Of a stretch of 64,000 nt of DNA, positions 18,238 through 64,000 are shown one piece after another. Each line of letters opens with the position of its first letter. Within the stretch, counting starts at the first letter, position 1. Made by a program: the position numbers and the translations under genes. Source of the stretch: Halichondria panicea (Eukaryota; Porifera; Demospongiae; Suberitida; Halichondriidae); NCBI RefSeq assembly GCF_963675165.1, contig NC_087377.1:10960632-11024631 (forward strand). The letters run 5' to 3'. The notes under the pieces were generated by a model, which searched no databases, was not told the origin of the DNA, and was given only the letters and a program-made list of their open reading frames with translations.

Positions 18238-21200
18238 CTAAGCACTTATAGATAAGAAATCTACAGTTTGAATTTTAATATTTGCATTTTCAAATGTCTG
18301 TCCTCCGGCTACAATGGCCTCTCCACTAGGAAGTACTGAGCATGTGCAGTTGAATCTTGCAGTAGGTAGGTCTCCCACTTTCACCCACCTCCTGGTGTCA
18401 GGCTGGTAGAGGTGGATCGATGAACTTGGGTGGACTCTGTCGACCTCTCCACCAACGGCTAATAGTGACCTCCCAATACTGAGAGGAGCTGAACACACGA
18501 GTGGTACTTCCTGTAAAGTCTGCCAGAGAGTGGGCGTGTCCAGGTTGGAAAGGGCCTTTGCAATGAGTTCATTGAGGTCGACATGGTGCACTGTCTTGGT
18601 TGGGCTAGTGTAATCTCCCCCTCCCCCTCCCATCAGGTAGAGGGTGTTTCCTATGAGAGTTGATTTCAGTACTGATCGTGGGTTAGGTAGTGACTGAGCA
18701 ATGTACCATCTTCTTGATGCCACGTCCAACATCTCCACAGAGGAGAGGGTACGTACTTCAGCATCATGCCCACCAGCTACAATGATGTAGTTGTTGAAGG
18801 AGACAGCTGTTGAGCAGGAACGAGCAATGTTCATTGGTGGGTACGGGTGAGTCCATTCCCCTGACTCAAACACTGCAAGTTGATTGGTGCGTTTTCTGTT
18901 TCTTGGATCATTTCCTCCTACCAGCACTAGTTGATAAGCGAGTGATGTCATAGCGAAGCACTGGGTAGTGTACTTTGGTAGTAAGGTCCATTGGTGTCGC
19001 TCGAGCTTCATCACTGTACACTTGCCACGATCATTATAATTGTCTGCAAGCCCTCCACCAACATACACCGTGTCACCGATAACAACACTCTGTACCGAGG
19101 TCATCCTCATTGGCATGCGTCTTCCTTTTCTCCATTTCAGAGTGAGTGGAGGTCTCAACTCTATGGGAAGGGGACCCTGAATAATGAATGAGTGTAATTA
19201 GGATAGTGTCTACTAACAAGCGAGTGATACTTGTAGCAATAATTGCATGCACACTAAAACGTTCTCTAATTAGCTTAAGAGGCGACGCCCACCAGTCTAA
19301 TAGTAAGATCAAAGCTTCTCTGCTGGTGCACTTCGTCTCACCTGTCTCTGCTGTTGAATAATGGCGTCTCTCTTGACCAGCTCAGCATCTTTGTGCTCAA
19401 TGAGTCCCCTGTGTGCCTGTACAGGGGAACGTTGGTGGACATTTGATTAAAACACAGACGTGAATATCATTAGTCTGCAACACTATTTTCCCCTAAATAA
19501 TTATAGGCACACTTAAATGGATGTGTAGTGTATAGTACGTTATACAGTTTATGATAATAATTATTATATTAAGCATCGATTCATGTTAAGATACAATGCT
19601 ATTGTTGCTGTGGGAATCCACACTACATGTACACACTACCTTCTTGACTGGTTGAGTGTCCTTTGACTCAATCTTTGTTGCCTCCACTGTGTCCGAGCCT
19701 CTCGTCAGGTCAGCATCTAAAGTACAAGGATCAACATTAATAAAGACAAATATGATTTTAGTTACAGTTAGGGTTAGCCGAAACGTAAAACACTTAATTA
19801 CTAGGTATACGCACACGCATAATTAGCGGCCTCATGCAGAGTTGTATTTAAGTACAATTTTAGGAGAAAGAAGGAGAGTAGACTTGCTAGAGAGTACCGT
19901 ATTACTAGAATATTTTGCGAGTGAAAAATCTTTGCGAATGAGCCAAATCAGCAGGAAATTTGACCCCCTTTGCGATCTAACTATTGCGTTCTGGAGAGAA
20001 TCATGTGTATTTACTAGTAATAATTTAGGTTTTGGGAATTTATTGTTGCGAATTGATCAATCCTCGATCGCAAAGTTCGCAAATGTTTGATGCTCGCAAA
20101 ACATTCTAGTAATACGGTATGAGTATAGAGAATGACAATTATGAAATAGCAAATACCAGGAGTGCATGAATATAATTATATATGATCAGTTTGGAGATTA
20201 ACCGAAGGTAGCCACACCCAATTTTCCGCATTCCTGAAACGTGAAATTCCTGAGCGTGACATTCCCCTGAGCGTGACATACATACATTTAAGCTGAGACA
20301 GCAGCCCAAGAAGAGCACAATAACTGCTGCTGTGCAAGAGTTTTGGAGGGGACATAACAATAAACACCCTCCTCGTTTAAACGCTCCCTCTAAAGACTTC
20401 GATATGAAATAAACGCCCGGGCGTTTAATCAAGTAAATACAGTACATACATACATACATACATACATACATACATACATACATACAAAGGTTTTCTGAGA
20501 TACGATGCAGTATTATAGTATTAGCCTCGCGCTAAAGCGGTCTGCAATAATTGACTTAGCCTCGATTCCAGGCCGATTAATGCGGCCTGGAATCGAGGCT
20601 ATAATTGACTCACAGATGTCCCTGGCAGATGGTCTCCTCCTCATGTCTTCTTGCAAACAACTGTCGATAAGTTTCCTCAACCTGTGTGTTTGAGGGATCT
20701 GGGCAACATGGTCTGATCTATCTTCCACAGATTTGACTGTCTTCAGCTTGCGAACAATCTGTACCATAATTGCACCAAGGGAAAAAACATCCACCCTATT
20801 ATCGTAATTATCTTTGTCCAATCGAATGGCCTCGAGAGGTAGATACCCCATACGGTGACCAACGGCTGTGAGGGTGTGGCTAAGCGTGGAGGAATCATAT
20901 AGCCGTGACATGCCAAAGTCGGAAATTTTTGCAACAGGCACAGGCTGTGTTAGCTTCAGCAAGACGTTATCGCCACAGAGGTCACGGTGGATAATCTGCT
21001 TGCTGTGAATGTAGGCCAGACCACAAGCCATGTTTTTGGAGAGGCTAATTTCACATTCGCTAGTGAGGGACTTTTCATCAACGCCGGAGAAATAGGATCT
21101 CAGATTGCAATCCATCAGCTCAACAATGAGGATTGTACCACCTGATTTGGGATGCTTAGCTGTCGACAAATACTGAACAACGTTTGGGTGTTGGAGTGAC

Positions 21201-21860
21201 TCGAGATACTCACACTCACGATCAAATGCTTTGCTAGCTTCTTCACTTTTGCCGGCTGGGAAACCTGTCTGCATTTCTATAGCCTCATAAATTAGAAGTT
21301 TGACTGCACAAATCTCGCTCTTGTAGCTGCCTTTGAAGACTGCTCCAAATGCACCTTTACCGAGAGGTTCGTCTAAGAAAACGGTCAAATCGTCATTGAT
21401 CTTCTGACAATTTTGGTTAACTGTATATAGAACATGTTGTTGTGTGTGTGTGTGGGAGGGGGATCATTATAGCAGCAAACAAACTATTAGGCATCATGTA
21501 TGAGATATGCATTCCTGTGCTGAACTAGTGCTTACCCTCTGTCTTCACATCAGTAGGATTGCTTGCATCAGTAGATTGTAGATGATCTTTCTCGATGGTC
21601 CTGGCTATGTCACTGTGGCCCACGATAGGACTTGACAAAGCTTTGACAACATCTTCCCAGCTTCTCTCCCCACCTTTCAGCCATTCTTTCAAACCCTCAC
21701 GATAACAGTCATCAGGATCGTCTTGCCATTTCGTACCAATGCTGTCAATAGTATCTGAGGATATTTTAAGAACCAGCAAGAAGTTTCGCCACTTGATTCG
21801 AGCATCAAAAGTAGCTATGTATAGATCTCCTAGATCTGCTATTGTGAGATAGTCAGACAT
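18238..21860 (-). CDS. Copy A: Death - kinase - coiled-coil - Kelch protein (intact)
   Basis: Exons 21860-21536, 21420-20614, 19716-19640, 19416-19342 and 19176-18238 join in frame (phases 1, 1, 0, 0) to about 740 residues. Residues 1-108 are a Death domain starting MSDYLTIADL (KEWLKGGERSWEDVVKAL, SPIVGHSDIA). Residues 109-377 are a protein kinase: glycine loop GKGAFGAVF, Lys in ICAVKLL, catalytic HRDLCGDNVLL, DFG, and YLPLEA in place of the usual APE motif. A linker (VEATKIESKDTQPVKK) and a 25-residue charged coil (AHRGLIEHKDAELVKRDA) follow. Residues 429-740 form six Kelch blades (YVGGG, VLVGG, IVAGG, YLMGG, LAVGG, IVAGG). The start is MSDYL because all Death copies share it. Likely a cytosolic signalling kinase with adaptor-binding and target-binding ends; substrates are unknown. 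A short palindromic MITE sits 13 bp past the kinase exon's donor site. Confidence 0.85.
19894..20120. mobile_element. MITE, ACCGTATTACTAGAA ends, in copy A intron
   Basis: Ends accgtattactagaatattt (19895) and acattctagtaatacggtat (to 20120) are inverted. Internal arms share gcgag/ctcgc and tttgcgaa. A related element is at 56250-56432 inside the USF-like gene. It lies in the intron between kinase and linker exons of copy A. Confidence 0.8.
20443..20486. repeat. (CATA)n microsatellite
   Basis: About eleven uninterrupted cata units lie in the intron of copy A between its kinase and linker exons. The translated open frame over it (a run of MYVC) is an artefact. Confidence 0.95.
20557..20601. 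repeat. Short perfect-hairpin element, AGCCTCGATTCCAGGCCG
   Basis: Agcctcgattccaggccgat and its complement gcggcctggaatcgaggcta are separated by only a few bases, so the DNA can fold into one hairpin. It matches the ends of the 12990-14076 element. It lies directly downstream of the kinase exon's splice donor (exon end 20614). Confidence 0.85.
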
Positions 21861-22017
21861 CTTCTCGGTTGTGTGTAGAGTGTGGGATGGGGAAATAAGC
21901 AATGAATACTGGGTGTGCCATGATATGCATGATCACACTACACAGTGTCAGTGCACTCACTGATATCAATCCTGTGCATGGCTATAGCATCTTTAGTCAG
22001 ATCATGTCACATATGGA
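21861..22017 (-). promoter_or_regulatory. Presumed 5' region of copy A
   Basis: A stretch ttctc(g/t)gt...gtgtagagtgtgg immediately upstream of the MSDYL start is conserved at the 5' ends of copies D, E and F (for example 33297, 48142, 54357). It is probably shared 5' leader or promoter-proximal DNA. No TATA element could be chosen with confidence. Confidence 0.35.
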
Positions 22018-22684
22018 ATGTTATCAGTGACAATATACCGGTATAGTACCCACCAGAAAATTACCCAAACTGTCCACAAAACGTACCCTCTAGAAAATCA
22101 TACCCATGCATGCACACACGAAAACCGACCCTCGAGAATATCATTGAGATGTACCTGTGCACAAAACAAAATCATAACCTTGCGCGCATAAAATCATATA
22201 CCCCAAACGTCACACCACCCCCCTAGTTTTACAAGCCACGCCCCTTCACGGAAAGAAGGGTCTGAAGTTGTCCCTGTGGAATTTAGCTATCAGCACGCCA
22301 ATATGTGGGTGTGGTTTGAAGATATGAGTGGGTGGACGATGACATTTCATAAATCTACAATCTGATTGATAGCGCCAACACTGGCACAGAGAATAACTCC
22401 TTCTTTCTGTGAAGGGGCATGGCTTAATTGCAAGACTAGGGGGTGGTGTATTGTTTCTGGAGTGTCTGTTTTTGTGCACAGATACAATTTTCTGGAGGGT
22501 CTGTTTTCGTGTGTGCGCAGGTATGATTTTCTCGAGGGTAAGGATTTTTGTGCATGGTGTATTTTCTCTGTTTTAACTTTTGGGTATGATTTTCTGGAGG
22601 GTATGTTTTGTGGGGGGTCTGATTCTGCAATTTCAGCATATTTAGGGTAGCATTTTCTGGTGGGTATTATTGTCACTGATAACA
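22018..22684. mobile_element. Foldback element with iterated ATTTTCTGGAGGGT motif
   Basis: Ends tgttatcagtgacaatatac (22018) and its complement attgtcactgataaca (to 22685) are inverted, with continued pairing through acccaccagaaaat. Inside, the motif (g)attttct(g/c)gagggt occurs several times on the right and inverted on the left (agaaaatcatacc). A nested pair ccacgccccttcacgg / tgtgaaggggcatggc lies at about 22234 and 22409. It sits upstream of copy A. Confidence 0.75.
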
Positions 22685-22799
22685 TTTCATAGTCGCAGAA
22701 GATCTACAAAATTAAACACGCCTTATTATATCTGCATGTCACATGCAAAAACCACACTATAGCTAGCTGGAAGAAACAGAAAATAAATTTTACTTTGGA

Positions 22800-23005
22800 A
22801 GTGAGCAATTGGCCAAACAATTATTGCCTGTATTATTCAAGTGTTTGGAGGCTTTGTCCTGTTCTATTGTGGGCAACGGTGACATAGACCATGTACAGTC
22901 TACTAGTGCAAGCACTGAAAAGCCGTCGTTGCATAGGTATACGTATGAGAAGGGTAGGCAACCTGTGTTAATGTACAGTATGTTGTACAGTCCATGATTC
23001 AGTAT
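22800..23005 (+). pseudogene. P2: plus-strand Death-domain-like remnant
   Basis: The plus-strand frame reads CLEALSCSIVGNGDIDHVQS, close to the Death-domain end of the minus-strand genes (VKALSSPIVGHSDIARTIEK, DHLQST). It continues as STSASTEKPS. Related plus-strand copies are at 33528-33600 and, split by an element, at 58770-58799 plus 62069-62150. It is a fragment without start or full domain, apparently from the divergent partner gene. Confidence 0.55.
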
Positions 23006-23235
23006 AGCATGAGATGAGTGAGTATATAATTATACCTACTGCATAGGTACCAACTTCCCCAGCTGGCCAAATTTCAGGGACAAAACATGGGGGCGTTAGC
23101 CCGCCGCCGAAGGAGGCAACTTTTGGGGAATGCACAACAATTTATGTATAGTACCACTTAAAATGCAATAACATTTTGTTGAATTAGAGCTTTTCTAAAA
23201 AGATTGTTAACGTTGTTAAATAAGTGGAACAATAA

Positions 23236-26174
23236 CTAATCACTTATAGAGAAGAAATCCACAGTTTGAATACTATTAGAATATATTTCTGTCCGTCCTC
23301 CGGCTACAATGACCTCTCCACTAGGAAGTACTGAGCATGTGCAGCGATATCGTGCAGTAGGCAGGTCTCCCACTTTCACCCACCTCCTGGTGTCAGGCTG
23401 GTATAGAGGAGGATCAATGAACTTGGGTTGTCTGTGCCGTCCCATCCACCAACGGCTAATAGTGACCTCCCAATACTGAGAGGAGCTGACAACACGAGTG
23501 GTACTTTCTGTAAAGTCTGCCAGAGAGTCGATGTGTCCAGGTGGGAAAGGGCTTTTGCGATAAGTTCATTGAGGTCGACGTGGTGCACTGTCATGGTTGC
23601 CCTCCCAATGTGATCGTGCCCTCCCATTAGGTAGAGGGTGTTTCCTATGAGAGTCGATTTTAGTTCTGATCGTGGGTTAGGTAGTGACTGAGCAATGTAC
23701 CATCTTCTTGATGCCACGTCCAACACCTCCACAGAGGAAAGGGTACGTCCTTCATCCTCCCACCCACCAGCTACAATGATGTGGTTGTTGAAGGAAACAG
23801 CAGAACGAGCAATGTTCATTGGTGGGTACGGGTGAGTCCATTCCCCTGACTCAAATACGGCAAGTTGATTGGTTGGTATGTTGTTTCTTGGATTACATCC
23901 TCCCACCAGTAGTCGATTAGCGAGTGATGTCATAGCGAACTACTCGGCAGTGTATTCCAGTAGTTTGGTCCATTTATCTTGCTTGAGCTTCATCACTGTA
24001 CACATGTCACAATCATTGTCTGCATCACCTTTACCAACATACACCGTGCCACCGATAACAACACTCTGTACTGAGTATCCCATCTTGATTGGCATGTCTT
24101 TTCCTTTTCTCCATTTCAGAGTGAGTAGAGGTCTCGAATCTCCGGGAGGGAGACGCTGAATAATGAATCAGTGTAACAAGGATATGTCTATACAGTAACA
24201 AGCGAGTGTTATACTGGTAGCATGCACGCTAACTTAAGAGACGATGCCCGCTAGTCTAATAGAATGTGTACAACAATTATATAAAAGACTATAATGGTGC
24301 ATTTCGTCTCACCTGTCTCTGTTGTTGAATGATGGCGTCTCTCCTGATCAGCTCAGCATTTTTGTGCTCAATCTGTTCCCGTACAGGGGAACGTTGGTGA
24401 AAATCTTTGAACTGAAACACAGACGTGAATAATCATTAGTGGAAATTCTACAACAGAACGAGAACAAGGACAATTTTCGCTAAAGAAAGTACATAATTAT
24501 AGGCACACTCAAACGGATGTGTAGTTACGGCTTAACACATGAGACAGCATCCATGCATATTAAGGTACAATACTATTGTTGCTGTGGGAATCTCATTCAC
24601 ACACTACATGTATACATATACCTTCTTGACTGGTTGAGTGTCCTTTGATTCCCTCTTTGTTGCCTCCACTGTGTCCGAGCCTCTTGTATCTAAAAGAAAG
24701 ATTATAGGAAATCAAGTTGGCCAAATACTCACACCTTTAGTGTCCTTCATTTGAGTGAAGGTTGTCGTGCTCGTTCTTGTATCTTTAGACATCTCCTCAA
24801 CACCTTTTAGTTTGAGTTTGTTCAGATTTCTGTACGTGACATGTACATACTTGTAATTATTATAATAATAATATTCATGTAACTAAATTATATATATAGG
24901 ACCCATGCTTGTAATTAACTTACAGTATAATTATTATAATTATGCCAGGAGTACCGGTATATAGTGCCTCTTCAAGAACTTACTGTTCCAGCAGTAATGT
25001 CTCCACCTCATCCGTACTTCTACAGGTGAGAACTTTGACCCCCATCACACTGAGAGCAGCCTGTACAGTAGGGGACACTGGGTAGATACGCTTGGCAACA
25101 GCTACAGTGATGAGAAAGTAGAGCTCCAAGCAACCTTGTTTGACTGAACAGAGTTGTAGTGCTGCTCTTTGTAGACTAAGTGCTTCAGCAATTCTTCGTG
25201 TCAGCCTTTTTACATACTCCAGTGTGGCTACTCGCTCCGTGCACTTGAGAACAAATATTTTAGCCGTTTTCATACGAGATTTTGAAGAGAAAGCTTCGGC
25301 CGGAACTTCAAACACATTTCGCTGGCAGAACTGATCAAGTGCAGAACAATACTCACACAGTTGTGTTTGGTCGTCTGGTGATCCCAGCAGCTCGATGAGG
25401 TACTCCACTATATTATTATTGAAAAAGGAGATGTAAGCACGTAGAGTCATGAAGACTTGGGCCAAATTTTTGGCATTTTTGATCTCTTGCCTATTTTCTG
25501 CATCAAAGACTTTAACTCCAATCCCGTCGTTGAAAGATTCGAGGCTGAGAAGAGAATCTTTAATCTTATCCAATGGGATCCGTTTTTCAAATGACTCTTG
25601 GATAATTAGAGTAAAAGCAGTGAAACTAATTATCATTTTCCTTGTGTCACGTATGAGCCGATCCTCCAATTCAATTTTATCATCATCATCAAGGCTAGAG
25701 TTGCGGCTGTTCAACACAGCTGGTCGCAGTCTTGTGACGCTTGTAGCTATCATATAGCTTCTTGACAACATCGTCAGTAGAAGGGCCAGCGATGGCAGCG
25801 ATAAAGCCGTGGAATACACTGGGATTGAGCTTAATTCGGTGGATAATAGTATCCAGAATCTTTCGAGATTTATCTGAGTCCATAACTCCATTCAGTCGAG
25901 AACTTAATCTGGTATGTATAGCCATTGGAGAATACAATTTTGGGTGCTGGAACGACTTGCAATTCACATTCACGATCAAATGCTTTGCTAGCTTCTTCAC
26001 TTTTTCCGGTTGGGAAACCTGTCTGCATTTCTACAACCTCATAAATTAGAAGTTTAATTGCACAAATCCCGTCCCTGTAGCTGCCTTTGAAGACTACTCC
26101 AAATGCACCTTTACCGAGTGGCGCCTCTAGGAAAACAGTCAAATCGTCGTTGATCAACTGATGATTTTGGTCAA
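23236..26174 (-). pseudogene. Copy B: kinase start fused to helical domain, with broken Kelch
   Basis: From the 5' end: 26174-25960 encodes the kinase beginning (GKGAFGVVFKG, ICAIKLL, AFDREC). It then changes frame within SFQHPK and joins a different sequence: a Death-fold-like segment (about 25920-25750, KILDTIIHRIKLNPSVFHGF) and, in another frame, a helical domain (25750-24985: ISFFNNNIVEYLIELLGS, QFCQRNVFEVP). Two linker exons (about 24829-24737 and 24689-24622), a coil exon (24411-24313) and the Kelch exon (24155-23236) follow with compatible phases. The Kelch exon has an in-frame TAG near 23940 where other copies have TGG, and a frameshift near 23405 (LYQPDT register lost). No Death exon is found upstream. 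Probably a pseudogene. The helical domain resembles one I recall from cnidarian and sponge Death/ankyrin proteins, at low certainty. Confidence 0.75.
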
Positions 26175-27190
26175 CTGTATTGGAGTGTATACAAAATGTA
26201 TATACAGTTGAGCCTGATTATTCGAACATCTGTTCCCATCTCATCCGGATGGTTGAAATATTCGGACACCAGTATGGTATAATTTTTATATAACTTTAGT
26301 GTTGGACTCAAAACTATTGTTCTAGAACTGAACAGATTATGATAATACTGAACTGTATTTATTTATAATTTCGTATATCTATAGTGTTCTAGAAGGTTCT
26401 TTCTAGTTTTGGTTTTATATAGCCTTTTATTCTGCATAATTCTGATGCAGAGTTGCTCAACCAGAATGACTTCACCTGTGCTTCCATGTGTTAATGTGTG
26501 GCTTCCGGTCAACGTTTTTTCGGGACGCTTGCTCCCCAAAAAGGGGATAGTTTAAATTTTGCAACTCTTACCTTTAGATTCCTGGGCAGCCTTGACCACA
26601 ACATTTCGTTTCCTAATAGTGGTGGTGATCTCTGGTTTCAAGTCAGGTTTCGCCTCTCTTGTTTTGGGATTTGCCCTTGGTGCTGGTATCACCCTGAGGG
26701 GGAGAAACTGTCACGTTGTGTACAAGCCTTCCCGGAATGCTATTGAATGATTTAAAGCCTTAACAATACACTGTTCATAAACACTGACACAATGAATGTT
26801 GTAAGTATGTTTTGGTCAAGTGGTGTCCGACCTCCTCTGAGGGATATCTAGTTGGTTCATGTGTTCCACTGAGGCACCAGCACTGCGGGTGCTTTCATTT
26901 TAACTCCATGCAGCCTCTGACAGGAAACTATACCGGCCGTCTCATTTGGAGTGGAATTGTAGCTCTTTTCTGACTCTTTTAGCTCTAACGCTTTGGTGCA
27001 ACGCTACCGATGACAACTCAAATAGTGCAAACAGATGATGCTACGAAAGATTCTGAGAGGCCTTCATAACTCTAGAAAGAAGCTTTAGTTTTGCAAATCC
27101 ACGAATCAAAATCCAAGAGAACGGCTATATAGAAGCTGCATGTTAGTGTTAGTTTCGTCGCATTGCAACAGTTGAGTAGTTACAATTGCA
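26175..27190. other. Gene-free stretch
   Basis: No supported gene. Around 26500-26750 a short frame (SGQRFFGTLAPQKGD) has no recognisable domain. Phrases such as gacctcctctgagggatatc at 26828 look like ends of the CAGAGGAGGT element group. Confidence 0.4.
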
Positions 27191-27195
27191 TGGAA

Positions 27196-27203
27196 TACAC
27201 AAA

Positions 27204-30032: not shown

Positions 30033-33293
<3,261 letters not shown>

Positions 33294-37090: not shown

Positions 37091-40000
37091 CTATAAGCTA
37101 CTTATAGAGAAGAAATCAACAGTTCGAATAAAATAATTATTTAACAGTTTTGTCTGTCCTCCGGCTACAATGACCTCTCCACTAGGATGTACTGAGCATG
37201 TGCAGCAGTATCGTGCAGTAGGCAGGTCTCCCACTTTCACCCACCTCCTGGTGTCAGGCTGGTAGAGGTAGATCGATGAACTTGGGTTCCCTTTGCCGTC
37301 CCGTCCACCAACGGCTAATAGTGACCTCCCAATACTGAGAGGAGCTGACAACTTGAGTGGTATTTCCTGTAAGGTCTGCCAAAGAGTGGGTGTATCCAGG
37401 TTGGAAAGGGCCTTTGCAATGAGTTCATTGAGGTCGACGTGGTGCACTGTCTTGGTTACTCCAGTGCGATAGTACCCTCCCATTAGGTAGAGTGTGTTTC
37501 CTATGAGAGTCGATTTCGGTTCTAATCGTGGGTTAGGTAGTGACTGAGCAATGTACCATATTCTTGATGCCACGTCCAACACCTCCACAGAGGTATATTC
37601 TTTATTATCATCATGCCCACCAGCTACAATGATGTGGTTGTTGAAGGAGACAGCTGTTGAGGAAGAACGAGCAATGTTCATTGGTGGGTACGGGTGAGTC
37701 CATTCTCTTGACTCAAACACTGCAAGCTGATTGGTGCGTTTGTTGTTTCTTGGATCACGTCCTCCCACCAGCACTAGTCGATTAGCGAGTGATGTCATAG
37801 CGAACCAATAGGCAGTGTACTCTGGTAGTTTGGTCCATTGATCTTGCTCGAGCTTCATCACTGTACACATGTCACGATCATTGCCTGCACCACCTCCACC
37901 AACATACACCGTGTCACCGATAACAACACTCTGTACCGAGCTACCCATCTTGATTGACATGTCTTTTCCTCTTCTCCATTTCAGAGTGAGTGGAGGTCTC
38001 AATTCTCTGGGAGGGGGACCCTGAATAATGAATGAGTGTAATTAGGATAGTGTCTACTAACAAGCGAGTGTTACTTGTAGCAATAATTGCATGCACACTA
38101 AATCACTTTCTCTAATTAGCTTAAGAGGCCACGCCCACCAGTCTAATAGAATGTACAGTACGATTATAAGAGATCAAAGCTTCTACTATAGCTCTGCAAT
38201 AATATAATGGTGCTTTTCGTATCACCTGTCTCTGCTGTTGAATGATGGCGTCTCTCCTGACCAGCTCAGCATCTTTGTGCTCAATCTGTTCCCTGTGCGC
38301 CTGTACAGGGGAACGTTGGTGGAAATCTTTGAATTAAAACACAGACGTGAAATCATTAGTGGAAATTCTACAACAGAACGAGAACAAACAACTTCCGCTA
38401 AAGGAAGTACATAATTATAGGAACACTCAAACGGATGTGTATTTAGCGGCTTAACATGATTTATACAATTGTTGAGGTATAATACTATTGTTGAAATCTC
38501 ATTGACACACTTAGCTACATGTACGCAAACAAATATCATTATTGTAATATAATACTAGCTTATAAGAGTGTGTGCATTTGGTGACTACTATAATACCGGT
38601 AAGAGAGTGGCCCTCTCAACTAGAGCAGCCTCTCTCTTGGAAATGAGATCAGTGATCGTTGACTCTTGTTCACTGAGTTGTCTGTCCTTGTCAGCAATCA
38701 TGCCATCTTTGGTGGCAGCAATAGCACGAAGACTATTCAATATCTGTATAAAGTGAAAAAAAGGTTATCAACATGCTCGTTGAACAAAATAGCTTATAAT
38801 GAACGAAGTCAACTGGTTCTGCTGACCTGTTGCTGTCTAGCCAGTTGAGTATCTTTGTCAGCTACTTCCTCATCTTTTTGTACCAGAAGTGCAGCGTTCT
38901 GTTCCAACTGGTATCCTTGCTGTTCAAGTTGATCGTCTTTTTGAACAAGTAGCTCATCTTTTTGTACCAGAAGTCCGTCTTTTTGATTCAGTTGATCATC
39001 TTTTTGCACTAGAAGTGCATCTTTCTCAGTAAGTTGCTCATCTTTTTGTACCAGAAGTCCGTCTTTTTGATTCAGTTGATCGTCTTTTTGCACTAGAAGT
39101 GCATCTTTCTCAGTAAGTTGCTCATCTTTCCTCTCCAGTATCCTGTCCTTCTCGACCATCTCTCTCTGAACAGAGTATACAGCATGCAGTGTCAGACCCT
39201 TGCACCCACTAGCTCACTGGACTGGACTCACCTTTAGAGCCTCTATCCTCTTCTCCTTTGCCCTGAGGGTCCTGGCAGTCTTCACTCGTGCAATGTCCAG
39301 CTGAAGCAGTCCTCCGTCCATCTCCCTCCCCACCTCCTCCAGAGACGAGAGGAGCTCAGCGGTGGTCGGTCTTCTCTCTGGGGTGTTGGCTAGACACTCC
39401 CTCACCAGACCAAACAGAGGGTGCTCACGTCCACCCGCCAAACTCCTCTCAAGGAGAGCCGTGTAGGGACCTCGACGCTCAAACTCTGAGCGAGCCAGGA
39501 GGTGGTCTGGGTTGTTGGGGTCACTGTACGTGGGGGCAAGGAGATCTCCTGGAAACACCTAGTCCAATGACATGAGTGGAAGAACATGTGAATACTGACT
39601 GTCATGATTGTTTTTATATAATTATGTCTGTATGTATGGAGAAAATGAGTGCACGTATATTCACAATCATACATACAAAATGCATTTACTGAAGGTCAAC
39701 AATATTAAAGGTGGATCTCCCCAACACATACAATACTTATAAGGTAATTCATTGCATGAAAGGTCACCAGGAATCTAACCTATGAATATCATTAACTACA
39801 CACGTACTTGTGTGAGTGCAAACAATTGCAGCACTCCGAAAGAGAAGACGTCCAGACTGGGTCCGTACAAACTGTGGCCTCTGTCAGAGAGGGCCTCGGG
39901 CGGCATGTACACCAGTGTCCCAGGAAACCTCGTCAGAGTCCTGGCCAGACGACCAGGCTCCAGATTCACGATACGAGAGTTACCAAAGTCTGTGATCTTG

Positions 40001-40569
40001 GCTCTCAGAGATGCCGTCAGCAGGACGTTCCTGGCAGTGAGGTCACGATGGACCACGGACTCACGATGCAGGTGGAGCAGCCCTCGAGCCACACAGACCA
40101 GAATGTACTGGGAGACGGAGAGGGGGATGTTGGGGGTGGACTCCAGGAGATCGTCTAGACTTGAGTCCAGCCTCTCCATGACCAGGAGGGGCAGTCGAGA
40201 GCCAGTTACGAAACACAGCCCAATGAACTGGGTGATGTTGGGGTGACGGATGCGAGCCATGAGTCGACACTCTCGGTGGCAGTTCCCAGCTAGGTTGGCC
40301 ACTCCACCACGCTCATTCGTCTCCAGGAGAACCTCGTGGATCTTCTTGGCTGCATACACCTCACCATTGATCATCACCTGTGCATGGAGGCAGTCACACT
40401 TGAATAGCTAGCAGATACACTAGAGACAGTGCACAGAAACAGAGCATGCAGTGCTTACCTCTTGAACAGAGCCATAAGAGCCAGTTCCTAGAACCCTCTC
40501 CTCTCCAAAGTGCTCCACATTCTCCAGCACAAACTCCCTCAAGTCAGCATCATCTCGCAAAGAAAACAT
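37091..40569 (-). CDS. Copy C: kinase - heptad coiled coil - Kelch protein (intact)
   Basis: Seven exons, 40569-40459, 40377-39808, 39558-39232, 39165-38827, 38743-38597, 38300-38226 and 38020-37091, join entirely in phase 0 to about 832 residues. There is no Death exon; the protein starts MFSLRDDADLREFVLENVEH. The kinase (about 21-300) has GTGSYGSV, Lys in AAKKI, HRDLTARNVLL, TDFGNS and a normal YMPPEA, so it differs from the HRDLCGDN / LPLEA kinases of copies A, D and E. Residues 337-498 are a long coiled coil of near-perfect seven-residue repeats (QLTEKDA, LLVQKDD, QLNQKDG). The small coil exon and six-blade Kelch exon are shared with the other copies. I infer an oligomeric kinase whose Kelch end binds the target. 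It is TKL-like by motif. Confidence 0.88.
38935..39125 (-). repeat. Coding minisatellite for heptad coiled coil
   Basis: In exon 4 of copy C, a block of about 84 bp (encoding QLTEKDALLVQKDDQLNQKD) occurs twice in tandem, and its 21-base units (cttttt-gtaccagaagt type on the plus strand) recur further. The repeat length is a multiple of seven codons, so unit gain or loss lengthens the coil without disturbing its register. Confidence 0.85.
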
Positions 40570-41755: not shown

Positions 41756-42864
41756 GGGTTGTTATAAAACAGGGAATGAGAAATGAGGAAATGAGGAATG
41801 AAGAAATGAGGAAATGAGGAAATAAGAAATAGGAAATGAGGAAATGAAGAAATGAGAACGAGAAATGAGCTGTTAGGCAGAGCATATCTATGGGCAGAGC
41901 AAATCTGAAGACGAAGCTAACATCTACTGAGCTACAGGTACGTACCTCCTGGTGACAAGTCTCCTGGTGCTCTGCCACCATACAGAACTTATGTTCCTCT
42001 GGTACACTGTGTGACACTCTCTACCTCTGTCTACTTGTGTGCCATGTACGACTGGCATGGTTCAGACATCATATCTACCTACGTAACGGTACTTACATGT
42101 ACTGTCCTACAGTCCCACAGTCTCAAACAATTTACCTATGCGTGGCTATACTGGCAATACATTCAATGATTTCACAATCCGGTGGGCAAGTGATAGTCAA
42201 TGGACTGGACTCAATGTCAACATCTACATGTAAGTAACAGCAAAGAAACCTCCAAAACTGTTTGTCAAACCAAGCAAATTCTAATGATCTGCCAGTCCTG
42301 TCGTAAAGTAGCCTCGATTCAAGGCCGATTAAAGTATTTTAATCGGCCTTGAATCGAGGCTAGTCGTAAAGCTGCAGGAAGTAATGACATTAGTACACTG
42401 TACTGGTATCATATCCAATCTCGCTACAGGGTGAAGAAAGCAATTCCCATTACCATTCTCACAAGCAATGCCTAGTGAAAGCTGATGCTACCTTTAATGA
42501 AGAAAGCTCACTGTGCCATCTGAAGCGATGGTAAAATTTAATTCTTACAATGTGTCCGACAACCTGTACTGTGTGGAGGTGCCACTATAATTATATATTT
42601 GATAACTAAATACTTAGTCACCTACTAGCTTCTTGGCTGATATATCAGTCATTACTTTTGTGCATCTATATTGTAATAATAATTATTATAACAATGTCAT
42701 AATTTGTGATGAAAATTAATGCCATGGTGATGATCTTAACCATAAATATAATTATTATTATTATTCTATTTCTTATTTCTTCATTTCCTCATTTCCTATT
42801 TCTTATTTCCTCATTTCCTCATTTCTTGTTTCCTCATTTCTCATTCCCTGTTTTATAACAACCC
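41756..42864. mobile_element. 1.1-kb element with minisatellite-bearing inverted ends
   Basis: Gggttgttataaaacaggga at 41756 is inverted at 42864, and each end carries its own array of a gaaatgag(g) unit (41776-41870; complement 42768-42845). The AGCCTCGATTC palindrome at 42310-42362 is nested inside. The interior has no supported gene. Confidence 0.8.
42310..42362. repeat. Short hairpin element, AGCCTCGATTCAAGGCCG
   Basis: Agcctcgattcaaggccgat and atcggccttgaatcgaggct with a loop of about ten bases form one nearly perfect hairpin. It is flanked on both sides by gtcgtaaagt / agtcgtaaagct, suggesting a target duplication of roughly TCGTAAAG. Same family as 20557-20601. Confidence 0.85.
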
Positions 42865-44423: not shown

Positions 44424-47400
44424 CTATATATTAGATATATTAGAGATGAAATCCACAGTTTGAATAATATCTTTCATATATGAACTTGTCTGTCCTCCGG
44501 CTACAATGACCTCTCCACTAGGAAGTACTGAGCATATGCAGTTGCATCTTGCAGTAGGCAGGTCTCCCACTTTCATCCACCTCCTGGTGTCAGGCTGGTA
44601 GAGGTAGATTGAGGAACTTGGGTTGTTTCTGTCATCGCGTCCACCAACGGCTAATAGTGACCTCCCAACACTGAGAGGAGCTGGACTCGTGAGTGGTACT
44701 TCCGGTAAGGTCTGCCAGAGAGTGGGTGTGTCAAGGTTGGAAAACACCTTTGCAATGAGTTCATTGAGGTCAACGTGGTGCACTGTCTTGGTTGCCCTCC
44801 CAGTGTGATCGTATCCTCCCATTAGGTAGAAGGTGTGTCCTACGAGATTCGATTTCAGATATGATAGTGGGTTAGGTAGTGACTGAGCAATGTACCATCT
44901 TCTTGATGCCACGTCCAACACCTCCACAGAGGAGGTACGTCTTTTATCATCACGCCCACCAGCTACAATTATGTGGTTGTTGAAGGAGACAGCTGTTGAG
45001 AAAGAACGAGCAATGTTCATTGGTGGGTATGGGTGAGTCCATTCCCCTGACTCAAACACTGCAAGCTGATTGGTGCGTTTGTTGTTTCTTGGATTACGTC
45101 CTCCCACCAGCACTAGTCGACTAACGAGTGATGTCATAGCGAAGTACTCAACACTGTACTCTGGTAGTTTGGTCCATTGATCTTGCTCGAGCTTCATCGC
45201 TGTACAATTGTCACGATTGTCTGCATCACCTCCACCAACATACACAGTGTCACCGATAACAACACTCTGTACTGGTCCACTCATCCCGATTGGCATGTCT
45301 TTTCCTCTTCTCCATTTCAGAGTGAGTGGAGATCTCAACTCTCTGGGAGGGGGACCCTGAATAATGAATGAGTGTAATTAGAATAGTGTCTATACTAACA
45401 AGCGAGTGTTACTTGTAGCAACTAGAGCACTGAAGTGCTAACCCTCGGCTGCATGTTTACATGAATACAATAAAGCAGTTGTATGTATGAAGCATGGGTG
45501 GCTAAGTAGCAAGTAGATCTAACATGAAACTTTTGAGAACAGAGCTTTGGTATGAGACATTTACTGGTGGACTAAGGATCACAGCAAAGAGAAGCCTACC
45601 ATGTACCAGTAACCTAGAGAGTCTTAGAAATATGGCTCCTGGTACAGGTATGTTCTGGGGTAGCCTCCTTCACTAGCCTCCCCTGAAGAATCCCTATCGT
45701 TCCCAAAAAAACACAGGAGTCTATACTCTACTGAAGTAAACAATTTTGAAACATGGGTGCAGGATAGAAACAGAAGTCAGGAGGACAAAGTTGACAAATG
45801 CTACAAGTTGAAGACATGCTTTCATACTTGTGACAATGGACCCAAAACTGTTAAAATCATTGGCTCTTAGTGTTCCTCGTAGAGACAAGAAAAGATATAC
45901 TAGTGAACCCTACCATCAACCCATGCAGCAAACGCTATAGAAACTGGTAGTGAAAAAACTAAAGGCAGCCATAGCTAATTATCATGCAGCTACAGCTTCA
46001 TTTATCATTTCTGTACATTCACAAAATTATACTTGTACTTTATACCCTCAAGCTTATAATTCCCTGGGAAACTATGCTCATAATTTCCTGCTAAACACAC
46101 ACAAGTGGGATCTAACTATAACAAAGTATCCTCTGCTTAGTGTACTTGTTATAAACCATCGTCTCTCTTCTTGACTCTACTCTCGATCTCCAACTGCTAC
46201 GCGCGGGCTAATTGTTAGTGTTGCTATAGTTAGCTAGTTTGCGGTTTAAATTTTCACGATGACATCACGGTCTAATAATAACTTCCGTTTTCTTACTGTT
46301 TAGTACTAATGAGCTAAACTATCCATTCCAGATGCGTTTTTACGCGATCGTTTAAACATGCGTTTTGAAAAACGGAACGGGAACTTTTTATTGATGGGCA
46401 CTGTACATAGGCACACTCTGGATGTGTAGTTACGGCTTAAGGTTATAAGGTTATGGCTTAAGGTTACGACGCAGGTTTTCTCATGAATTATTCTCATGAA
46501 TTATTCTTTTTGTGAGACATTGTTTCTATTATTTTATGTGTCTATACTGTAGCACTGCTCATAAGTAACTATTACAGCGCTTGTTAGCTATCAATACGTT
46601 AAATAGACGGCAACACTTTACCACAAAGATCTTAGCTAACAGTGACCTACCATCAGTTTATGACATTCTGTAGGTGAACACTGCATCGTAACCTTAAACA
46701 CATGAGACAGCATCCATGCATGTTAAGGTACAATACTATTGTTGCTGTGGGAATCTCATTCACATACTACATGTACGGACCTTCTTGACTGGTTGAGTGT
46801 CCTCCCTCTTTGTTTCCTCCACTGTGTCCGAGCTTCTTGTAATGTAAGAATCTAAAATACAATTTAAATGTAATTTATTTTTTTGGAAGCATACATTTTA
46901 ATTGACTCACAGATGTCCCTGGCATATGGTCTCCTCCTCTTGTCCTCTTTCAAACAACTGTCTATAAGCTTCCTCAACCTGTGTGTGTGAGGGATTTGGG
47001 AAAAATGGAATGATCGATCCTTGGCTGATTTGATCGTCTCCAACTTGCAAACAATCTGCACCATAATCGCCCCAAGGGAAAACACATCCAGCCTACTATC
47101 GTATTTCTCCTCTTCCAATCGAATAGCCTCGAGAGGTAGATACCCTATACGGTGACCAACGGCCGTGAGGGTTTGGCTAAGCTTGGAGGAATCATATAGC
47201 CGTGACATGCCAAAATCGGAAATCTTTGCAACAGGCACTGGTCGTGTAAGCTTCAGTAAGACGTTATCGCCACAGAGGTCACGGTGGATAATCTGCATGC
47301 TGTGAATGTAGGCCAGACCACAAGCCATGTCTTTGGAGAGGCTAATTTCACATTCGCTGGTGAGGGACTCTTCATCAAGGCCGGAGAAGTAGGATCTCAG

Positions 47401-48138
47401 ATTGCAATCCATCAGCTCAACAACGAGAATTGTACTGCCTGATTTGGGGTGCTTGGTAGTCGACAGAAACTGAACAACGTTTGGGTGCTGGAACGACTTG
47501 AGGAAATGACTCTCACGATCAATTGCATCGCTAGCTTCTTTGTTTTTGCCAACTGGAATACTTGCCTGCATCTCCATAGCATCGTGAAGCAGCACTTTGA
47601 CTGCACATATCTTGCCCTTGTAGCTGCCTTTGAAGACTGCTCCAAATGCACCTTTACCGAGACGCTCGTCTAGGAAAACGGTTAAATCGTCGTTGATCTT
47701 CTGGTGATCTGTAGAAGATGTGTGTGTGTGTATGATGGGGGGGGGGGGTGAATATTATAGTAGCTAACAAACTAATTAGGCATCATGTATGAAATGCATT
47801 CCAGTGTTGAACTAGTACTTACCCTCTGACTTCACATCAGTGCCACTAGTAGACTGTAGATGATCTTTCTCGATGGTCCTGGCTATGTGAACATCACCCA
47901 CGATAGGACTTGATAAAGCTTCCACCATATCTGTCCAGCTTTTCTCTCCTTCATTAATCCATTCCTTCAAACCCTCACGATAGCAGTCATCAGGATTGTT
48001 GCTCCATTCTTTCCCAATGCTGTCGATTGTAGCCTGGGGTACATCAAGAATAAGCAAGATGTTTCGCCACTTAATTCGAGCATCAAACGTGACGAGGTAT
48101 AATTTCTTTAGATCTGCTATTGTGAGATAGTCAGACAT
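44424..48138 (-). CDS. Copy E: Death - kinase - linker - Kelch protein (intact, no coil exon)
   Basis: Exons 48138-47823, 47708-46911, 46851-46781 and 45356-44424 join in frame to about 705 residues: Death 1-105 (MSDYLTIADLKKLYLVTFDA), kinase 106-371 (GKGAFGAVFKG, ICAVKVLL, HRDLCGDNVLL, DFG, YLPLEA), linker 372-395, Kelch 396-705. The 25-residue coil exon present in copies A, C, D and F is missing, and about 1 kb of unrelated DNA (45418-46408) occupies its place. Because that exon is phase 0 at both ends, its loss leaves the frame open. No stop or frameshift was found, so this copy is probably functional. The Death domain differs more from A than D and F do. Confidence 0.82.
45418..46408. mobile_element. 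~1-kb insertion replacing the coil exon of copy E
   Basis: Sequence shared with other copies stops after acttgtagcaa (about 45420) and resumes at about 46410 (ggcacactc.gatgtgtagttacgg). The left edge actagagcactgaagtgcta is inverted at 36366-36395 (tagcacttcagtgctctagt), next to P4, marking it as the end of a dispersed repeat. No gene can be supported inside. Confidence 0.6.
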
Positions 48139-50395: not shown

Positions 50396-52331
50396 CAACC
50401 CACAATATTGTCAGTGTGCATGCTTTTCCAATTAACCTACCCTTCCCCATTTTTTCACAAAATGTTTTTTGCACTTGTGTTATGTACCACTTCATGCATG
50501 TCATCATGAAATTCTGTTGAAACTATAATATTATAATTATATAGATCGTTAACATCAATGCACAACATATAAATGAGAAAACAAATAACTAAGCACTTAA
50601 AGTGAAAAAATCCACAGATTGAATTTTAACTAAACTCTCCTGTCCTCCGGCTACAACAAACTCTCCACTAGGAAGTACAGAGCATGTGCAGCTGTGTCGT
50701 GCAATAGGCAGGTCTCCCACTTTCACCCACCTCCTGGTGTCAGGCTGGTAGAGGTGGATCGATGAACTTGGGCTGTCTCTGTCGTCCTCTCCACCAACGG
50801 CTAATAGTGACCTCCCAATACTGAGAGGAGCTGACTTCATGAGTGGTACTTCCTGTAAGGTCTGCCAGAGAGTGGGTGTGTCCAGGTTGGAAGGGGCCTC
50901 TACAGTAAGTTCATTGAGGTCGACGTGGTGCAATGTCTTGGTTGCCCCAGTGTGATCGAACCCTCCCATTAGGTAGAGGGTGTTTCCTATGAGAGTCGAT
51001 TTCAGTTCTGATTGTGGGTTAGGTATAGTGACTGAGCAATGTACCATCTTCTTGATGCCACGTCCAACACCTACACGGAGGAGGAGGTACGTCCTTGATC
51101 ATCACACCCACCAGCTACAATGATGTGGTTGTTGAAGGAGACAGCTGTTGAGAAATGACGAGCAATGTTCATTGGTGGGTATGGGTGAGTCCATTCCCCT
51201 GACTCAAATACTGCAAGTTGATTGCTGCATGTGTTTGAATCACATCCTCCCACCAGCACTAGTCGATTAGTGAGTGATGTCATAGCGAACCACTTGGCAG
51301 TTTTGTCCATTGATCTTGCTCAAGCTTCATCACTGTAAACCTGTCATGGTAATTGTCTGCGTACCCTCCACCAACATACATCGTATCACCGATAACAACA
51401 CTCTGTACCGAGGTCATCTCAATTGGCATGTCTTTTCCTCTTCTCCAATTCAGAGTACGTGAGTAGAGGTCTCAACTCTCCGGGAGGGGGACCCTGAATA
51501 ATGAATGAGTGTAATATTAGGATAGTGTCTACTAACAAGCGAGTGTTACTTGTAGTAATAATTGCATGCATACTAAAATCACTTTCTTAAGAGGCGACGC
51601 CCACCAGCTTAATAGAATGTACAGTACGATTATATCGGATCAAAGCTTCTTGTATAGCTCTGCAATAATGTCTCACCTGTCTCTGCTGTTGAATGATGGC
51701 GTCTCTCCTGACCAGCTCAGCATCTTTGTGCTCAATCTGTTCCCTGTGTGCCTGTACAGGGGAACGTTGGTGAATTAAAACACAGACGTGAATATAATTA
51801 GTGGAAATTCTACAACAGAACGAGAACAAGAAACAATTTCGCTAGGGAGAGGTATTAGAGTTACAGCTAATAACATAGCATCCGTGGAGTGCATGCGTAC
51901 ACTACTGCGGGAATTACTACATGTACGCACTTTCTTGACTGGTTGAGTGTCCTTTGACTCCCTCTTTGTTGCCTCCACTGTGTCCCAGCTTCTTATCAGT
52001 GAAACATCTAAGGTAAACTTAATTGAAAATCGATACGTATAGTATTACAAACAAATTGTACGTGTATAACGTCATGCATAACGTGATTTTAGAGGCTATA
52101 GTTGGGCTTGGTAAATTATTAGCAACGCTAAAAACTCGCCCATGCATGCACTGTCTGTAGCATTGAACGTTTTAATTCCAGTTAGTGTTGTATTGGGTAC
52201 ACGTATATATAGCTAGAGTATACCAATGGCTATGCTGAGCGCTGCAGAATACCTACAGTCTCTTGAGTTACAGCGAGCTGCATGCTCTCTTGAATTTCTA
52301 CAAAAACAGTATATACGTATAATTATATATA

Positions 52332-54012: not shown

Positions 54013-54353
54013 CTGAACTAGTGCTTACCCTCTGACTTCACATCAGTAGGATTGCTTGCATCAGTAGACTGTAGATGATCTTTCTCGATGGTATTGGCTA
54101 TGTCACTGTGGCCCACGATAGGACTGGACAAAGCTCTGACAACATCTTTCCAGCTTCTCTCACCACCTTTCAGCCATTCTTTCAAACCCTCCCGATAGCA
54201 TTCCTTTGGATCGTCACGCCATTCTTTGCCAATGCTGTCGATTTTATCAGAGGGTATTTTAAGAACCAGCAAAAAGTTTCGCCACTTGATTCGAGCATCA
54301 AACGTGGCTACGTATAGTTTTCCTAGATCTGCTATTGTGAGATAGTCAGACAT

Positions 54354-58190: not shown

Positions 58191-58309
58191 AGTATTATTA
58201 TTTTTATACATGTTATTTGTGTCTTAATAATTGAGCTCTCAAAAAATGTTTATGTACATAGCTACGCCCATTAATAATAAGACCACGCCATTATAAGTGC
58301 AGCCTACCT

Positions 58310-58799
58310 CGATTCAGATCTCAACCTGGACTGCTTAGTACAGTTGCCAACCCTAAGACTTGGCATTGAGAGGAACCTCCTTCATCATGCAAGAACAAGG
58401 TACCATCAAGAACAATGCAGTGCGACTGTGTACCATTGAATGTACAGTACAAAGAATGGGAACCTAGCATGCTTACTAGTCTGCAGTATGTATACATGCA
58501 CTTGTATACAAGGTATGCTTCAATGTAGGCAGGTGTGTACAGGGAAACGTGTGTCAATTGAGATTACTAGCTCACAATATTCGTAATGACATTGTACAGT
58601 ACTTGTACCAGACCCTTCATCACACTACCAGTTTGAATGTGTCCATGTGTTGTTTATCCTGGCTACAGAACACTGACTCAGGACGATGGGGACTTTGACA
58701 AGTTAGATTGTTCAACCACATGATGCACAGAAAAAAGAATTTGTACATGCAGTCACTTTTGTGTCTGTATTTGGTGGAGGCTTTGTGTTGTGATCCACA
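58310..58799 (+). pseudogene. P7: partial plus-strand copy, interrupted by an element
   Basis: Shared phrases: aggaacctcc...caagaacaaggtacc (58370-58402), the intron phrase catgcttactagtctg (58468), exon start acactgactcaggacgatgg (58671), then ttggtggaggctttgtg (58770). The last corresponds to the Death-like exon of P4 (33530). That exon is cut at 58800 by the 3.27-kb element and resumes at 62069. Confidence 0.6.
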
Positions 58800-61700: not shown

Positions 61701-62068
61701 TGTAGCTTCTAACACTTTATAACGAAGAAGCAGACAATGGTACTTATAATTTGCTGCAACAATACTCTGTACTCATGCAGGACATACTTTATGTTCCTGT
61801 ACATTTTCAATCACTTTTTTTGCTGTTTCATCGAATGTACGTATAATTTAATTGCACCTCCATTTATCTTTTCACAGTCACATGCTAACAACGTCACTAT
61901 TAATAATTTATTGCATGCTACATACGTGCTGGTTTAACACAAAAATCAATGACACGGGTGCTGTTTTAACATTGATATCAAGTAACACGTATGTATAGTG
62001 TGCTATTTTAGGAGACATTCGAACGACACGCTACCACGGGTTAAAATAACACGTTTGTTTTTACAGTG
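58800..62068. mobile_element. 3.27-kb terminal-inverted-repeat element
   Basis: Cactgtaaaaacaaacgtgt at 58800 and acacgtttgtttttacagtg ending 62068 are perfect inverted ends, extending to TTA / TAA. Subterminal DNA carries many copies of an acacgtgt / (c)acatgtgtgcta motif (58815-59030 and 61940-62050). The interior (59040-61930) has no long open frame, no transposase motif and no recognisable gene. It appears to be a non-autonomous element, inserted in a P-unit whose uninterrupted relative is at about 33530-33600. Confidence 0.85.
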
Positions 62069-63567
62069 CAGTGACATATATAGCCCAGCAGGAACATGGA
62101 GAGAAACCATAATGATACAGTCTACTGGTGCAAACACTGAAAATTCATTGTCGTATAGGTATGAGAAGGGTAGGTAACTAAATGGGTGACTCTAGACTGC
62201 ATAGGAAGATGACAACTCTGAGCCTGTGTTAGTGTACAGTGTGTTGTACACTAACAGTACATTATAGCATGAGATGAGTAGTGCCTACTGCAATGGAGTC
62301 TTGTATTAAAGCAATGGTGACAATTCCGAGCTGCTTCTGTTATTCTGATAGAGTGTGTCTGTTTGGTTTGTGCTTTACACTGTGTTGGTGTGAGTGGTTG
62401 TTTTCAATGGCTTCCTCTCTCCTACAGTTGAGGAGACAAGAAGAGGCACTGAGAATGGAGGTACAGGTACAGAGCACATTAGCTGGAAAATGCATTTGTG
62501 TCGTACTTTGTAGAGTCCCTTAAAGTCATTCAAGGTCAGCTATAGTGTGTCCTATTTGAAGGTGCATGCATGTGCAATGTACAATCATGTACGACCCCCC
62601 CCCGCCCCTATACACACACACCTTTAGGCCTACTGTGCTGCTAAGAAAGGGGCCTCACGTAAACTGGCCACTCAGACGCTAACATACCTCAGCAGTATGG
62701 AAAAGGGTCTGTCATCAGAGACTAAAAACTCCCCTGACACCCAGCCCTTGCATGCAGCCCACCTCCAGCCTGGTGAGCAGCCTATAATCAGTGAGGACAG
62801 TCTGAAGACATGGGTCCATGGACAGGAGCTCCTCAGGAACCTTCATCAAGAACAAGGTACGTGTGTTTATATAATGCATGTGTAGTTATGCAGCGCAATG
62901 AGTCGACTGTGTACTATTGAATGTACAGTACAAAGAATGGGAACCTAGCATGCTGTATGTACATGCAATTGTATACAAGGTATGCTTCAATGTATGAAGT
63001 TTAGGTGTGTACAGGGAAACGTGTGTCAATTGAGAATATACTAGCTCACAATATTTGTACAGGACATTGTACAGTACATGTACCAGACCCTTTATCACAC
63101 TACCAGTTTGAATGTGTCCATGTGTTGTTTATCCTGGCTACAGAACACTGACTCAGGACGATGGGGACTTTGACAAGTTCCGGATAGTGTCAAAGCTCAG
63201 CAGCTCTCGCTCTCCACAAAAAGTATCACTTTAACTGACTCTTACGATTATTCTAGTATTCATAATGTAAGTACGTACATATTGTATATACCCGTACATG
63301 TGTTGTGTGTAGTGTCCCTTTTATCATAGCTGAGCCATTTTGCAGTATAAATTATAGCTACTGTTATTATGTGATTTTCTCACCCCTTACTTCCTAAGCT
63401 CTCAAATTTCCACTCAGTATGATATGATCATGTGACTCTTTAACCCCTCAGTTTCCGAGCCCCACCCCTCACTGTCTGACTCGGAAGAGGAGATAGACTT
63501 TGGATTCTGGGAGAAGGCGTCCACCCTACCCTCGGACAAGACCCCAACCAAGGACCTAAACTTATGA
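62069..63567 (+). pseudogene. P8: near-complete 3' half of the repeated plus-strand gene
   Basis: After the Death-like remnant (62069-62150) come exons at about 62428-62470 (LRRQEEALRMEVQVQSTL); 62690-62856 (MEKGLSSETKNSPDTQPLHA, LQPGEQPIISEDSLKTWVHG, QELLRNLHQEQ, donor aag|gtacgtg); 63144-63220 (LTQDDGDFDKF, then one base missing compared with P3 and P5, so KFLESVKAQQ becomes KFRIVSK); and 63451-63567 (VSEPHPSLSDSEEEIDFGFW, EKASTLPSDKTPTKDLNL, stop). The single-base loss at about 63181 makes this copy doubtful. Product unknown; the conserved end is acidic and then aromatic (DFGFW). Confidence 0.6.
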
Positions 63568-63740
63568 AGTGGTAGTTATATACATATTTACATCGACTAC
63601 AAAACAGTCAAAATAATATTTATTATGTATATAACAGTCTCTTAGAAGTGTACTTAATAAGTTCATAATAACCATAAAATGTTGATAATAATTATTTCTC
63701 AACATGATAAAAAGACAGTTAATGTCAATGCACAACATTA

Positions 63741-64000
63741 TTAAAAGAAACAACTATAATCACTTATAGAGAAGAAATCAACAGTTTGAATATTAGTATA
63801 TACATTTGTTTGTCCTCCGGCTACAATGACCTCTCCACTTGGAAGCACTGAGCATGTGCAGCGGTATCGTGCAGTAGGCAGGTCTCCCACTTTCCCCCAC
63901 CTACTGGTGCCAGGCTGGTAGAGGTGGATTGATGAACTTGTGATGAGTTTGTCGTCCCGTCCACCAACGGCTAATAGTGACCTCCCAATACTGAGAAGAG
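63741..64000 (-). CDS. Copy G: Kelch exon of another paralogue, cut by window edge
   Basis: The last Kelch blades are encoded (VKVGDLPTARYRCTCSVLPS, GEVIVAGGQT, VDFFSISD), with the end extended to DYSCFF and stop at 63741 because the usual terminal codon is changed. The frame is open to the window edge. It carries small differences from other copies (for example WGKVGD-type change near 63896, caggctggtgcc). Whether the rest of the gene is intact cannot be seen. Confidence 0.75.
   Translation of the reverse strand, partial: LLSIGRSLLAVGGRDDKLITSSSIHLYQPGTSRWGKVGDLPTARYRCTCSVLPSGEVIVAGGQTNVYTNIQTVDFFSISDYSCFF

Follow-up and report, generated by a model that had tools for sequence, protein, structure and literature searches.

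What is encoded by the tandemly repeated genes of the sponge Halichondria panicea in which Death, protein kinase and Kelch domains appear to be combined, and what are such proteins for? The question is raised by a 64,000-nucleotide stretch of contig NC_087377.1 (C1:10960632-11024631; hereafter, the window), where a preliminary description, made from the letters alone, had reported seven related minus-strand copies (A to G) of a gene with a Death-kinase-coiled-coil-Kelch architecture. Searches of the sponge's own assembly (131.5 Mb, 39 contigs) show that the predicted genes of this family are built from one 3' cassette, a coil exon followed by a Kelch exon, placed behind three exchangeable N-terminal chassis and subject to tandem birth and death. 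They also show that the predicted ligand face of the Kelch propeller is hypervariable and under positive selection, with the rest of the Kelch domain and the signalling domains more constrained. The family is large and diversifying, and probably consists of recognition-and-signalling proteins that likely serve as a cytosolic repertoire for non-self recognition.

The proposal that Death, kinase and Kelch reside in one polypeptide is supported by gene A, whose five exons (Death, kinase, linker, coil and Kelch) join in frame through GT-AG boundaries at four of four introns to give 740 residues with a stop codon directly after them, and by six loci at which Death and kinase share a single uninterrupted open reading frame (ORF); a seventh contains one stop, and one of these loci, L069, was read directly. 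The Kelch and kinase assignments are certain, since their Pfam scores are far above the cut-offs (Kelch_1, 71-107 bits in the window copies, cut-off 20.1; Pkinase, 126-131 bits over complete domains against a cut-off of 31.7). Among 26 type I kinase ORFs chosen for HRDL and DFG, the glycine-loop and lysine patterns are present in all 26 and P-x-E in 24. Compared with PDB, this kinase matches many groups about equally, with EGFR, TAO, CDK6, LIMK and others at the top and IRAK4 at 7e-15. The Death assignment was borne out in part by profile search: the window exons fall below the Pfam cut-off, as detailed further on, and the assignment is supported because FADD accounts for 11 of the 13 PDB matches (E values up to 1, the lowest 0.001) of a profile made from four Death exons, and because at one locus (L001, on C28) a family Death domain (72% identical) and a 64.2-bit Pfam Death match occupy one 372-residue ORF directly upstream of a family kinase. 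At another locus (L007, on C6) a 53.1-bit Death ORF stops 46 bases ahead of the family kinase ORF. The whole products of A and D gave no match (E 0.05) to BTB, BACK, NACHT, NB-ARC, LRR or WD40 domains, no signal peptide or membrane span was noticed in them by eye, and an intracellular location of the products is what we infer.

The three chassis differ in their signalling parts. Type I carries Death and a kinase, type II carries another kinase and a coiled coil and has no Death, and type III carries an unannotated module. Type II is represented in the window by D, which had been taken for a broken copy and is instead an intact gene of seven exons, with GT-AG boundaries at six of six introns, encoding 832 residues followed by a stop. 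Its kinase is 31% identical to that of A across 157 aligned columns and is followed by a long coiled coil. The coil exon (AHREQIEHKDAELVRRDAIIQQQRQ in gene D) and the Kelch exon are common to types I and II; the strict coil-exon pattern occurs at 10 of 30 Kelch loci, and several others have, by eye, a slightly different coil exon. Type III is represented by copy B, which is not a mere fragment, since it carries this module; the earlier description had overlooked both that D's kinase is different and that B has an additional module. The type III module (about 228 profile positions) has 108 matches in the genome, distant relatives included, and is found at 15 places at 82% identity or above; the 14 that lie beyond the window occupy ORFs of 376-385 residues. 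Searches of it against Pfam, NCBIfam and PDB gave nothing significant, a match to TRADD-like_N at E 0.15 in one of nine members being a lead only. One distant relative (L094, on C7) comes after a Death exon, the single such case seen. The 126 listed Kelch exons comprise 69 of type I, 37 of type II, 12 of type III and 8 without type, four of the latter having Death about 2.3-2.4 kb upstream (L097, read by eye, is without a visible kinase ORF).

The simplest reading of the Kelch sequences is that types I and II share one Kelch pool and that the 3' cassette has often been exchanged between gene types. Frequent exchange is suggested because type labels are unstructured on the Kelch tree (15 type I, 11 type II and 4 unlabelled rows; 9 label changes for each type, compared with means of 8.6 and 8.7 after shuffling) and because mean DNA identity is similar within and between types (0.917 within type I, 0.923 within type II, 0.920 between them). 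The tree itself is poorly resolved, with 3 of 27 branches starred.

Selection on the individual domains was analysed with our own grid implementation of an MG94-type, FUBAR-like codon method, in which a site was called when the posterior for the nonsynonymous rate (dN) exceeding the synonymous rate (dS) was above 0.9. The Kelch set consisted of 34 extracted exons (L046 and L063 were missed by the motif), 30 of them distinct; four of its exons (L044, L045, L053 and L058) have no listed kinase, and all of these except L045 have the module of copy B upstream. The other sets held 13 distinct sequences from 31 stretches for kinase I, 22 from 30 loci for Death, and 15 from 16 extracted (19 tried) for kinase II. 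The comparison of dN and dS across the Kelch domain, suggested in the preliminary description, placed 36 of 331 codons under diversifying selection. For comparison, kinase I had 3 such codons among 258, Death had 5 among 108, and kinase II had none among 183. The pooled ratio of nonsynonymous to synonymous differences (pN/pS) is 0.96 for Kelch, 0.35 for kinase I, 0.36 for Death and 0.13 for kinase II, and the maximum likelihood (ML) estimates of dN/dS (omega) are 1.01, 0.72, 0.67 and 0.17, respectively. With three separate segment trees, 31 of the 36 Kelch sites were retained and 1 was gained.

Where these sites lie in the propeller was assessed by a test defined independently of them. The pocket of Keap1 is formed by the DA and BC loops (available portion of PMC4668279), and the Keap1 residues named in the available portions of PMC4668279 and PMC6891428 as contacts of Nrf2 or inhibitors were converted into offsets of -15, -14, +2, +4 and +7 from the first glycine of the blade GG (Ser602, one of 18 contacts, has no usable offset). 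Placed on the six GG blade landmarks of the family Kelch domain, the offsets cover 30 of 309 positions, and 20 of the 34 mappable selected sites fall on them (Fisher 1.9e-15); the best of 308 circular shifts gives 11. Omega is 5.75 at the 30 Keap1-offset codons, compared with 0.58 at the remaining 279. A broader loop set (-15, -14 and +2 to +9), drawn after the sites had been seen, takes in 31 of 34 sites, and a face/core split, likewise drawn afterwards, gives omega of 3.73 and 0.34. The two regions hit in the family match the DA and BC loops, and the earlier assignment of ligand binding to Kelch is supported because the ligand-face codons are under diversifying selection.

Could the pattern arise without function? 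Copies B, C and F are broken and the Kelch tree is poorly resolved, as would be expected if the amplification were relaxed and largely non-functional and the apparent selection came from pseudogenes and gene conversion. We consider this highly improbable in view of the high omega on the face beside the low one elsewhere in the same exon, the persistence of most sites with separate segment trees, and the rarity of stops (4 of the 126 listed Kelch matches contain one, as do 4 of the 101 near-full listed kinase-I matches). A quite unlikely alternative is that the proteins are non-immune signalling adaptors, paralogues of which became specialised on different host substrates after duplication. Kelch domains do often bind host substrates, as in Keap1-Nrf2, and the kinases have kept their catalytic motifs; against this, the most variable Kelch columns, at face positions, hold up to 12 different residues among 30 sequences, and this variability, together with the omega of the face, suggests continuing diversification rather than a single burst of specialisation.

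Several points weigh against a selected recognition face combined with conserved signalling domains. The Death exons of A, C and F are divergent and score 15.6, 14.4 and 17.7 bits, under the Pfam cut-off of 22.6, and that of gene E has no Pfam Death match. The ML omegas of kinase I and Death are well above the counting values, and because they are high, constraint on these two domains may be only moderate. The codon method is our own implementation and assumes a single tree for each segment in spite of likely recombination, and the Kelch set (the 30 places closest to gene D and five others) is non-random. Finally, the face was mapped by sequence landmarks, not by structure, and 14 of the 34 selected positions fall outside the Keap1 offsets.

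The tandem relatedness of the copies reported in the window stood (they are about 79-91% identical in DNA when the window is compared with itself), and the size of the family did not: with more than 100 members in the genome, its scale had been underestimated more than tenfold. The genome searches scored the best 150 of 672 candidates for Death, 144 of 746 for kinase I, 126 of 456 for Kelch and 150 of 809 for kinase II. We used 147 of the 151 matches to Death, leaving out one unlisted match and three fragments of 38 residues, and 135 of the 144 to kinase I, leaving out seven below 40% and two fragments; for kinase II we used 48 of 150 (84% or above), for type III 15 of 108 (82% or above) and for Kelch all 126. 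There are at least 124 Death exons at 60% or above (among the 147, in a single-exon genome search), at least 118 kinase-I exons at 70% or above (among the 135), at least 48 kinase-II places and at least 126 Kelch exons; a second Kelch query gave at least 125 places, including 4 or more that are absent from the first 126, and the two lists were kept separate. Of 118 listed kinase-I exons, 66 are flanked both by Death (within 3 kb upstream) and by a listed Kelch (within 6 kb downstream). Another 45 have the Death partner alone, 4 have the Kelch alone and 3 lack both. Most of the listed exons lie in megabase clusters, the main ones being C1:15.48-16.14 Mb, where all listed features are on the minus strand, C1:16.50-17.39 Mb, where all are on the plus strand, and C6:0-0.80 Mb; the window holds a small outlying group. 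The birth-and-death pattern proposed earlier is supported.

What the family does is a matter of interpretation. An immune or recognition role is likely, judging from the domains and the selection pattern. Each propeller would bind a different target through its variable loops; beyond this, the steps are drawn from domain knowledge. Target binding may bring the proteins together through the coil and the Death fold, upon which the kinase would phosphorylate partners and pass on the signal, the Death fold would recruit death-fold adaptors, and type III would use its own module for signalling, the outcome being an anti-microbial or other non-self response. More tentatively, and with some reservation, these genes could constitute an intracellular, kinase-based system of non-self receptors in sponges, in which a hypervariable Kelch pool is recombined among at least three chassis to give more than 100 specificities. 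If true, this would be a propeller counterpart of NLR repertoires, possibly including sponge allorecognition receptors. The family is a candidate repertoire by which an early-branching animal could tell microbes or other individuals from self, with a scaffold and an output (Kelch propeller, with kinase or other death-fold ends) for which no description in this role turned up in the literature searched; the hypervariable codons offer direct predictions on ligand binding.

The fungal proteins HET-D and HET-E serve polymorphic same-species recognition at fusion. By analogy, the sponge propellers might read polymorphic same-species molecules when individuals or cells fuse, the family then serving allorecognition, not anti-microbial defence. 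The pattern of selection is indeed like that of the het-d/het-e propellers of Podospora anserina, where, according to the available portion of PMC1805685, diversifying selection acts on four interaction-surface residues in each WD repeat, and the tandem clusters of the sponge share Kelch cassettes. We nevertheless regard an allorecognition role as rather unlikely, as more than 100 paralogues per genome exceed the need of a recognition locus. HNWD receptors, the fungal 10-member family with WD40 repeats and a NACHT core, are the nearest working analogue found for the non-self repertoire that we favour. Like the sponge genes, they form a multigene family whose propeller surface diversifies and is exchanged between members (PMC1805685, same portion); the sponge family differs in its Kelch propeller, its kinase and death-fold ends and its more than 100 members, and A and D matched neither WD40 nor NACHT. 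IRAK/Pelle proteins share with type I an N-terminal Death followed by a kinase and differ from the family in the C-terminal Kelch found here and in that types II and III lack Death. Keap1/KLHL proteins have in common with the family a Kelch propeller whose ligand loops are DA and BC, whereas A and D have no BTB/BACK, the face is hypervariable and kinases take the place of the Cul3 adaptor. Sponge NLR expansions are likewise large sets of death-fold-bearing receptor candidates (128 DEATH and 230 NACHT genes in Dysidea avara, according to the available portion of PMC12909245); those have NACHT and LRR, neither of which was found in A and D. In the response of two sponges to microbial patterns, the available portion of PMC6208332 gives 'Kelch motif containing', DEATH-domain and kinase genes as separate entries. 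Among the matches listed from the open-access literature, a scope that mostly leaves out subscription papers, there was no paper on a Death-kinase-Kelch architecture or a hypervariable Kelch repertoire, and 'kelch' is absent from the main text of PMC11229196.

The features of the individual copies are collected in the table below. Of the three copies that had been read as intact, A is so, E keeps Death, kinase, linker and Kelch (a coil exon was looked for in E and none was found), and C is ruled out as intact by frame changes in its kinase and Kelch. B and F are broken as described, both with a frame-shifted Kelch and F with no kinase between its Death exon and linker. G is indeed truncated by the end of the window, and its kinase and Death were located beyond it.

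Table. Family features in the window (window positions, except where C1 is given)
Feature	Position	Strand	Remarks
Gene A (type I), exon 1, Death-like domain	21536..21860	-	below Pfam cut-off; PDB profile, splice fit
Gene A, exon 2, kinase I	20614..21420	-	
Gene A, exon 3, linker	19640..19716	-	
Gene A, exon 4, coil exon common to type II	19342..19416	-	
Gene A, exon 5, Kelch propeller	18238..19176	-	stop codon 18240-18238
Copy B, N-terminal part only of kinase-I exon	25933..26175	-	
Copy B, ORF with most of type III module	24983..25891	-	intact relatives: ORFs of 376-385 residues
Copy B, linker, coil and Kelch	23242..24687	-	linker 24687-24616, coil 24381-24313, Kelch 24146-23242 with one frame change
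Copy C, Death exon	32970..33293	-	
Copy C, kinase I	31942..32722	-	frame change near 32467
Copy C, Kelch	30039..30961	-	frame change near 30690; coil exon 31220-31146
Gene D (type II), exons 1-3, kinase II	39232..40569	-	40569-40459, 40377-39808, 39558-39232
Gene D, exons 4-6	38226..39165	-	coiled coil 39165-38827, 38743-38597; shared coil exon 38300-38226
Gene D, exon 7, Kelch propeller with stop	37091..38020	-	
Gene E (type I), Death and kinase exons	46912..48138	-	splice sites by eye
Gene E, Kelch exon	44427..45359	-	linker 46843-46781
Copy F, Death exon	54030..54353	-	
Copy F, linker, coil and Kelch	50592..51999	-	coil 51751-51677, Kelch 51456-50592 with two frame changes
Gene G, end part of Kelch	63762..63995	-	outside window: kinase C1:11025960-11026757, Death C1:11026888-11027196

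Near-perfect short palindromes of one kind, resembling small inverted-repeat elements, lie at 20557-20601, directly after the kinase exon of gene A, and at 42309-42362. Elsewhere in the genome, the C1:15.48-17.39 Mb cluster has two outward-facing arms on opposite strands, across which the Kelch exons of L055, L056 and L057 are identical; this identity points to a recent inverted duplication or gene conversion, or to an assembly effect. Two other clusters, at C3:0.87-1.71 Mb and C11:4.4-6.5 Mb, contain dozens of further kinase ORFs whose identity to kinase II is about 45-52%, and a separate cluster at C12:1.04-2.08 Mb holds dozens of Pfam Death matches. Three type I loci, L001 (C28:38134-41361), L007 (C6:729663-732905) and L098 (C28:40600-43600), have a strong additional Pfam Death ahead of the kinase and long ORFs upstream (676 residues at L098); the two of these ORFs that were scanned gave no Pfam match, and the upstream ORFs may or may not be part of the same genes.

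Outside the family, the gene at C2:658600-660400 reads GDCGASYAFSAMGALEG, with Ser in place of the catalytic Cys, a form that we take to be the mark of silicatein, and supports a silicatein-bearing sponge; the matches to the silicatein probe (best full match 52%) otherwise look like cathepsin L, and it is the Ser form of the active site that points to silicatein. In the window, a Subtilase ORF (PF00082, 127 bits) and then an 810-residue ORF with five ILEI stretches (PF15711, 400 bits) lie on the plus strand at 8338-12270, and the two possibly form one gene.

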